Origin: Acidovorax sp. Leaf191
GTDB taxonomy: Bacteria > Pseudomonadota > Gammaproteobacteria > Burkholderiales > Burkholderiaceae_C
Length of the DNA stretch: 64,000 bases
NCBI RefSeq assembly: GCF_001424425.1
Contig: NZ_LMPT01000019.1
Span: 266,508-330,507 of the forward strand
Reading direction: 5' to 3'
Part shown: piece by piece, positions 32,594-34,018 of the stretch
Layout: each line of letters begins with the position of its first letter
How positions within the stretch are numbered: position 1 is the first letter of the stretch
The notes under the pieces: generated by a model
Told to the model about the DNA's origin: nothing
Seen by the model: the letters and a program-made list of their open reading frames with translations, nothing else
The model's database searches: none
Translations under genes and position numbers: made by a program

Positions 32594-34018
32594 TCAGCCG
32601 GCAGAGCGGCCGGCCCCGGGAAACGAGAAGTATTCCACAGCCTGCCGGGCGATCGCGCCGCCCTGCTCCTGCACGAAGTGCCCGGCGTCTGGCAGCACCG
32701 TCGGCGCGGGGCAGCCGCGAATGTGGCGGTGCAGCCCGTGCATGGTGGCGGGTCCCAGCACCGGGTCCCGCGCGCCGATGACCATCAGGCTCTGGCCCTG
32801 CCACTGGTGCTGCCAGAAGTCACGCGCCTGGCGGGACAGCGCAGCGCCGGGCGCATCGGTGCGGTCCGGCACGCGCTCGGGGAAAGCGCGCAGCGCGGCG
32901 CGATAGCCCTTGTCCGGAAACGGCGCGTCGTACGCCGCGCATTCGGCGGCGGTCAGGTGCGGGTTGCCGCGTGCGAGCAGGCGCCCCACGCCGTACAGCG
33001 GCTTGTCGCGGCACATCGCGCGCCAGTCGACAAACCCGTCAGGCAGCGGCGCATCGCCCGTGGCCAGCACCGTGTTCATCACCAGCAGGCCCGCAAAACG
33101 GTCCGGGCAGGCCATGGGCAAGGTCAACCCCAGAATGCCGCCCCAGTCCTGCACCACCAGCACCACGTTGCGCAGGTCAAGCCGCTCGACCAGCTCCAGC
33201 AGCACCTGGCGGTGCCACTCGAACTGGTGCACGGCCTCTTTCTTGGGCTTGTCGCTCTTGCCGAAGCCGATCAGGTCGGGCGCCACCACGCGGTCGCCCG
33301 CGGCCACAAACACCGGCAGCATGTGCCGGTACAGGTAACTCCAGGCCGGATTGCCGTGCAGGCACAGCCAGGTGCGGGGCGCATCCGCCGGGCCTTCGTC
33401 CACGTAGTGCATGCGCAGGCCCGCCAGGCTGGGCAGGTCGCTGACGTACCGGGGTGCCCACGGGTAGCCCGGCAGATCGGCAAAGGCGGCATCGGGCGTG
33501 CGCAGCGCATCGTCGCGCAAAGGGTGGCGGGCCCGTGCATCGGCGCGCTGCTGGTTGCGCCGGGCGCCGAAGAAGCCGGTGAGCAGCGCGCTGCATTCGG
33601 CCGCCAACACCCCGCCGTGCACGCCGGTCTGGTGGTTGATGGCGGTGTGCGCAAACAGGTCCAGCACCGAGCCTGCCGCGCCGGTGCGGGGCTCGGTGGC
33701 GCCGTACACCACGCGCGCCAGGCGCGCATGCAGCATGGCACCGCTGCACATGGCGCAGGGCTCCAGCGTGACGTACAGCGTGCAGCCGTCGAGCCGGTAG
33801 TTGCCCAGGCGCTGCGCCGCAGCGCGCAGCGCCACGATCTCGGCGTGGGCCGTGGGGTCGTGGGACTGCACGGGGGCATTGCGGCCGGTGGCGATCACCT
33901 GGCCGTCCTTGACGACCACGGCGCCCACGGGCACCTCGCCCGCGGCCACAGCGGCCCGCGCCTCGGCCAGCGCCAGGCGCATGCCGTCTTCGTCGCTCGA
34001 CACCACTGCCGCTGTCAT
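32594..34018 (-). CDS. tadA: Fusion: tRNA adenosine(34) deaminase TadA + haloalkane-dehalogenase-like hydrolase
   Basis: A 474-residue single frame. Residues 1-155 are TadA, converting A34 of tRNA-Arg to inosine: zinc ligands His58 with Glu60 in HAE, and Cys88/Cys91 in PCAMCSGAM. Residues about 185-470 are an alpha/beta hydrolase of the haloalkane dehalogenase type: [11 protein letters not shown] (221-231), nucleophile Asp291 in [16 protein letters not shown] with halide-binding Trp292, Asp418 in ARDPV and His447 in DAGHFVQ. The pattern is closest to DhlA-like subfamily I. The linker (155-185) is Arg/Ala-rich. No stop or start codon signal separates the halves. Whether dehalogenation is the true activity is inferred from motifs. 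Confidence 0.9.

Follow-up and report, generated by a model that had tools for sequence, protein, structure and literature searches.

A natural fusion of the tRNA deaminase TadA with a haloalkane dehalogenase, and the breakdown of its dehalogenase active site in more than one lineage

A fused deaminase–dehalogenase gene in Acidovorax

The 64,000-nucleotide stretch of Acidovorax sp. Leaf191 analyzed here (the window; contig NZ_LMPT01000019.1, positions 266,508 to 330,507) carries a gene that joins the tRNA adenosine deaminase TadA to a haloalkane dehalogenase (HLD) of subfamily I (HLD-I). This gene, tadA-HLD, lies at 32594..34018 on the minus strand and is a single open reading frame (ORF) of 474 codons, with an ATG start and no internal stops, which confirms the uninterrupted frame proposed by the first-pass annotation. 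Its TadA domain (residues 1–163; 33530..34018, minus) was delimited by profile, alignment with PDB sequences and residue check; it scored 205.6 bits against NCBIfam PRK10860 over residues 6–163, above the curated cut-off of 150 bits, and matched E. coli TadA (1z3a) at residues 5–164 (E 2.7e-47). The HLD-I domain (residues 172–465; 32624..33505, minus), placed by profile and alignment, scored 332 bits against PRK00870 haloalkane dehalogenase over residues 170–463 (curated cut-off 265 bits) and matched DppA (2xt0) at residues 172–464 (E 7.5e-104) and DhlA at residues 170–465 (E 4.5e-96). Alignment of the fusions places a linker at residues 164–175 (33494..33529, minus). Among the best 60 of 267 matched PDB chains, none had its best stretch spanning both halves.

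Both active sites are intact in the window protein, as had been claimed, and all the residues named in that claim, including HGNP at 221–224, stand at the positions given for them. The zinc site of TadA is present (HAE and PCxxC motifs; H58, E60, C88, and C91). Enzymes of subfamily HLD-I use an aspartate and two tryptophans. The dehalogenase pentad of the window protein is complete, with nucleophile D291, base H447, acid D418, and the halide-binding pair W292 and W332; the second of these tryptophans, absent from the first-pass list of residues, aligns with the corresponding one of DhlA, which we take to be W175. This composition agrees with a passage of one HLD study that lists an Asp nucleophile, a His, an acid, and two halide-stabilizing residues (PMC10503415). 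The cap domain is also present, since the alignment covers the whole of DppA and DhlA bar a ten-residue DhlA stretch in the cap; most of it falls at residues 300–363 (32930..33121, minus), approximate limits read by eye from the alignment. The hydrolase half therefore resembles DhlA (1b6g) and DppA (2xt0) in full-length alignment, catalytic residues, and family score, but differs from both in its fusion to TadA, in a K259–K260 loop, in the loss of catalytic residues in many of its relatives, and in N223, where both have Glu (Asn also occurs in four of nine stand-alone relatives). The TadA half resembles the E. coli (1z3a) and S. aureus (2b3j) enzymes in its zinc-deaminase residues, family score, and the two phenylalanines and arginine of its last helix, as well as in being the sole copy above cut-off and in having its tRNA substrate present; unlike them, the window protein has about 310 extra C-terminal residues that form the hydrolase domain.

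A check for separate copies found neither a second TadA (next-best match 78.6 bits, and weaker still when the protein served as query) nor a second PRK00870 dehalogenase above cut-off in the source genome. An Rfam search located tRNA-Arg(ACG), the substrate of TadA, at L098 1793–1869 and L120 1501–1577, which are one and the same gene. TadA is essential in E. coli (PMC3711424) and is reported to be non-essential in B. subtilis (PMC10454642). One genome of the same family (G088, 100% complete) had no TadA above cut-off yet contains tRNA-Arg(ACG) (L244 1501–1577); TadA above cut-off was likewise absent from three others (G052, G054, and G101), which may reflect true loss or an assembly gap.

It is barely credible that the two halves are made as, or end as, separate proteins through an internal start or cleavage. 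An in-frame TTG at codon 167 could serve as such a start, but the 20 bases upstream of it hold no Shine-Dalgarno-like stretch, and between codons 138 and 202 the frame has neither ATG nor GTG, so an internal start for a separate hydrolase is not convincing. The linker is, moreover, conserved in relatives whose hydrolase is broken.

Distribution and origin of the fusion

Alignments over both halves were obtained in 60 of 198 related genomes (source genome included), 58 of them of the same family. Among the matches listed for 369 genomes sampled from the class, both-half alignments occurred in three genomes, all of the family of the window, although such a search may overlook heavily eroded fusions. 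The carriers are a group of bacteria from soil and water: Acidovorax supplies the nearest named relatives in the databases (best 120 of thousands of matches), and other carriers identified by name include Limnohabitans, Polaromonas, Ottowia, Delftia, Comamonas, Malikia, and Tepidimonas. We assembled a family set of 101 distinct fused proteins, 79 from the related-genome search and 22 from named loci, in which only two pairs are more than 98.5% alike; one locus (L190) starts at a contig edge and provides the hydrolase half only, and another (L048) was possibly shortened by an assembly fault. Six of the 60 both-half alignments (G012, G019, G026, G027, G030, and G032) and the contig-split G009 were left out. 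These 101 distinct loci exclude a frameshift or assembly error as the source of the joined frame, an artifact that the first-pass annotation had named as a refutation; it had also proposed a search for the same architecture across Comamonadaceae.

The gene downstream of tadA-HLD is ldcA, identified by profile search as an LD-carboxypeptidase of peptidase family S66 (31534..32535, minus). In a second set of 101 TadA rows, different from the family set and comprising 81 fused and 20 unfused loci, the zinc site was retained in all 81 fused rows, and ldcA followed downstream in the same orientation in 77 of the 81 fused and 16 of the 20 unfused loci. The four fused loci that depart from this arrangement are L048 (contig end), L069, L078, and L084, and in L043 ldcA is more than 1 kb off. 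Because ldcA follows fused and unfused tadA alike, the simplest account is an in-frame insertion of the dehalogenase between tadA and ldcA. Of the 101 rows, 86 went into one analysis and 63 into a tree that we built from TadA and LdcA with the hydrolase columns excluded (rows without ldcA and near relatives omitted), in which the family fusions form one clade of 54 rows (support 100/100), 53 of them fused.

A second fusion (L081/L082) occurs in another family of the order, f3, where four of five genomes carry it, and its hydrolase half groups with stand-alone enzymes. A single origin of all fusions was rejected for the hydrolase half by the approximately unbiased (AU) test (p-AU 1.1e-4; 28 fused versus 9 stand-alone rows), which makes the f3 fusion a separate one. 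Two stand-alone enzymes (L085 and L086) fall inside the family's fusions in the hydrolase tree, where one clade of family fusions is still compatible with the data (p-AU 0.28). The linker of L081 may preserve an old hydrolase start (MNDVLRTP). Many unfused TadAs of the window's family (L124–L139) have a C-terminal tail of their own, roughly 30–60 residues long, that lacks any match to the dehalogenase and often carries an IPTG(D/E)- or IPxG-like motif.

Loss of the dehalogenase active site and features of the remnants

All five dehalogenase catalytic residues are intact in 63 of the 101 family fusions, while at least one is lost in the other 38 (hereafter broken forms) and at least three in 36, with examples in Comamonas, Malikia, and Tepidimonas. 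Twenty-three broken forms keep none of the five, L083 keeps three, and the Delftia protein L159 keeps four. The domain is also reduced: beyond position 163, 31 of the 38 extend for no more than 266 residues, compared to at least 301 in intact fusions. Mostly missing are the cap and the last part carrying the acid and the histidine. All nine stand-alone relatives examined retain the complete pentad. No PRK00870 match above cut-off was found in any of 27 broken-class genomes checked (73 of the 198 genomes have one), and compensation of the lost chemistry by another such HLD was rejected on this basis; matches below cut-off do occur, for example at 125.7 bits in G107. Separately, one genome (G110) holds both a fused gene (L078) and a stand-alone PRK00870 dehalogenase above cut-off (G110:C21:249779-250684).

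The broken state arose more than once. On the TadA and LdcA tree, a single clade of broken forms was rejected (p-AU 4.9e-5; 26 broken versus 26 intact rows), and the best tree has 12 changes between intact and broken states, at least six of them forced by the starred branches, with the bootstrap not settled. Such counts do not separate gain from loss; since all nine stand-alone relatives are intact, losses are the simplest reading. With catalytic residues lost in 38 of 101 fusions, a remnant still attached to TadA, and the broken forms not one clade, the fusion has been kept without hydrolysis, and retention of the attached domain without its chemistry points to a second, structural role.

These losses bear on the suggestion of the first-pass annotation that the hydrolase acts on a nucleic-acid-related substrate. 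In this reading a nucleic-acid-related or halogenated nucleotide substrate would be coupled to tRNA editing. In its favor, the authors of a study on the HLD-III enzyme DhmeA anticipate that its substrates are bulky and carry negative charge, and halogenated nucleotides are mentioned there (PMC10503415). However, DhmeA belongs to a different subfamily, the chemistry was lost repeatedly while the fusion stayed, and no pointer to a substrate of this kind turned up in an analysis that made no search aimed at one. We regard this proposal as unsupported and very improbable.

Parts of the remnant are strongly conserved. In the C-terminal half of the 38 broken forms, conservation reaches 90% or more at 26 positions; the catalytic five are not among them. 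They include L167, R168, and D170–R173 of the linker, H221, W226, D248, G251, G253, S255–K259, H264, P366, and G371. Linker residues R168, D170, A171, L172, and R173 are nearly invariant in intact and broken fusions, and F149, F150, and R154 of the adjoining TadA half are unchanged in all 52 intact and all 27 broken rows. Comparison of fusions with stand-alone enzymes defines a fusion-specific basic loop at residues 255–264 (33227..33256, minus), where K259 is followed by K, R, or H in 100 of the 101 family fusions (L060 being the exception) but never in the 11 proteins compared that are stand-alone or separately fused. Database searches gave a similar picture, their members being the nearest 120 of thousands and related to each other: KK or KR occupies positions 259–260 in 120 of the 120 fused proteins nearest to that of the window and in none of 120 stand-alone relatives, whose second residue is mostly acidic. 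Among the best 120 broken-class proteins, K259 is universal (KK in 99, KR in 13, and KQ in 8), P[YFW]PDxGH occurs in 109, and not one has a nucleophile-elbow or GHF motif. The segment at residues 365–378 (32885..32926, minus) is kept as APFPDxGHRA or similar in most broken relatives; the cap segment before it is shortened or missing in most. Net charge of the N-terminal hydrolase core (residues 172–290) per 100 residues is +0.6 in the 63 intact and +0.4 in 36 broken fusions versus −1.7 in the nine stand-alone enzymes, a difference that is only suggestive given spreads of 1.5 or so. One remnant (L040) is predicted to fold like DhlA 1–226, that is, as the alpha/beta-hydrolase core of an HLD.

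We also compared selection on the two halves by counting nonsynonymous and synonymous differences between sequence pairs (dN/dS, Nei-Gojobori). The hydrolase half of intact fusions had dN/dS of 0.04–0.16 in five of five pairs, each lower than in the TadA half. These values, together with its intact residues, suggest that the hydrolase of the window protein is probably catalytically active.

A possible non-catalytic role for the hydrolase core

The reading that we favor, with moderate confidence, is a bifunctional enzyme in which the hydrolase core additionally serves TadA in a non-catalytic way, most likely by docking on TadA itself or on the tRNA. It comes near to the first-pass suggestion that the fusion serves expression or stability. 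One polypeptide would carry, in its N-terminal half, the only TadA of the cell, which would make inosine 34 in tRNA-Arg(ACG). An HLD-I domain would have been joined to it in frame between tadA and ldcA in the ancestor of the Comamonadaceae-type clade, and its core would then have gained a role in docking through the linker and the basic loop. Lineages that lost the chemistry would have shed catalytic residues, in most cases along with the bulk of the cap, and would have kept a remnant with the linker and loop features because of this role. Docking is suggested since the linker adjoins the last TadA helix, the basic loop is kept, and the partner of the protein is tRNA; the contact itself is a prediction. 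A more specific version, in which the captured dehalogenase was exapted as a tRNA-binding or positioning module whose basic loop was gained after fusion and kept in several independent lineages despite active-site loss, is put forward more tentatively, at somewhat short of an even chance.

Several observations weigh against such a role. The remnants are mostly less constrained than TadA, with dN/dS of 0.25–0.54 in seven of seven broken pairs, above that of TadA in six and equal to it in one; these ratios are rough, as synonymous distance is near or above 1 in three pairs, and they include the pair L036–L038, which has no common broken ancestor on the tree (one intact–broken pair, at 0.29, was excluded from both counts). 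Some conserved segments were unconstrained in single pairs: values for APFPD were 0.59 and 0.66 in the two pairs closest to each other, and two further pairs gave 1.05 and 1.41 for the HG segment. Loss of the domain can occur, given that L127, inside the fused clade, is a plain TadA. K259–K260 may be a clade marker from one ancestor, and the separate fusion L081/L082 lacks this loop, although in its two rows the core is at least equally basic. Nor did any TadA residue stand out clearly as specific to the fusions: three weak positions differ from unfused family members, and at two of them the fusions go toward the residue of most outgroup TadAs. Charge of the whole hydrolase half differs little between intact fusions (−0.4 per 100 residues) and stand-alone enzymes (−0.8). 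Finally, the predicted fold of the remnant is a single model with a predicted template modeling score (pTM) of 0.63, in which the interface is not safely readable.

Some of these points are also what would be expected of a passenger, a hydrolase fused by chance, active where useful and elsewhere in slow decay, with deletions staying in frame because TadA tolerates a tail. The raised dN/dS of the remnants, with some segments unconstrained in single pairs, the reversion in L127, and the wide range of remnant lengths (171–322 residues, and 109 in L048) fit this explanation, and unfused family members manage without the domain. Decay does not readily account for non-catalytic positions that are nearly invariant across separately broken lineages, for the lysine at position 259 in all of the best 120 broken-class proteins, or for the confidently predicted fold of one remnant. 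In six pooled pairs of remnants, the conserved segments had dN/dS of 0.27, like TadA (0.24), versus 0.60 for the rest, a comparison that is partly circular because the segments were picked for conservation. We consider a mere passenger unlikely.

Constructive neutral entrenchment, in which the attached core became necessary for TadA to fold or for its dimer to be stable while not touching the RNA directly, draws on the same data as the docking role, and few parts are as conserved as the linker beside the last TadA helix. The shift in the loop from the acidic second residue of most stand-alone enzymes to KK in the fusions hints instead at a specific partner, and entrenchment appears a rather improbable account.

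Known systems offer partial parallels to the bifunctional enzyme with a docking core. The eukaryotic deaminase ADAT2/ADAT3 (entries such as 8aw3 and 7nz7) is comparable by analogy only, as a TadA-type deaminase with an extra part helping to hold the tRNA; ADAT3 is a partner subunit, unlike a fused domain, and we know of no dehalogenase origin for its added part. The adenine base editor ABE8e (6vpc), which appeared among the PDB matches listed, is an engineered case of TadA working with a large partner; this partner is Cas9 and the construct artificial, unlike the natural fusion. Public annotation already reflects the fused architecture: the name 'haloalkane dehalogenase/tRNA(adenine34) deaminase', from one source, stands on five of the best 120 dehalogenase relatives. 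These five (P0209, P0212, P0219, P0220, and P0238) are stand-alone dehalogenases of ~300 residues, to which the dual name was perhaps carried over from the fusion. The fusion was not found in the literature, as judged from titles and abstract openings among the matches listed; the HLD study of Vanacek and others (2018) may mention it.

Other features of the window lie beside the fused gene or further off. An 87-codon ORF with no Pfam or NCBIfam match (34026..34289, minus) ends 7 bases before the tadA start and is matched in some relatives. The LD-carboxypeptidase starts with a histidine-rich, possibly metal-binding leader, HDHAHDHHHDHDHSECSHDHGPQH (32461–32535, minus), which is kept in Acidovorax-like and some other relatives and absent in many. 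Two tandem tRNA-Asn(GTT) genes lie at 58595–58814 on the plus strand.

Each part of this protein is already known; what is new is the fusion in which catalysis was repeatedly lost and a reduced domain kept. Related genera hold one fused enzyme in intact, half-broken, and reduced versions, which amounts to a natural experiment in which a shift from catalysis to support can be tested directly. Two cautions follow for annotation: in this bacterial family TadA often comes as a two-domain protein, and some of the haloalkane dehalogenases annotated in these genomes are either dead or one half of an enzyme of translation.
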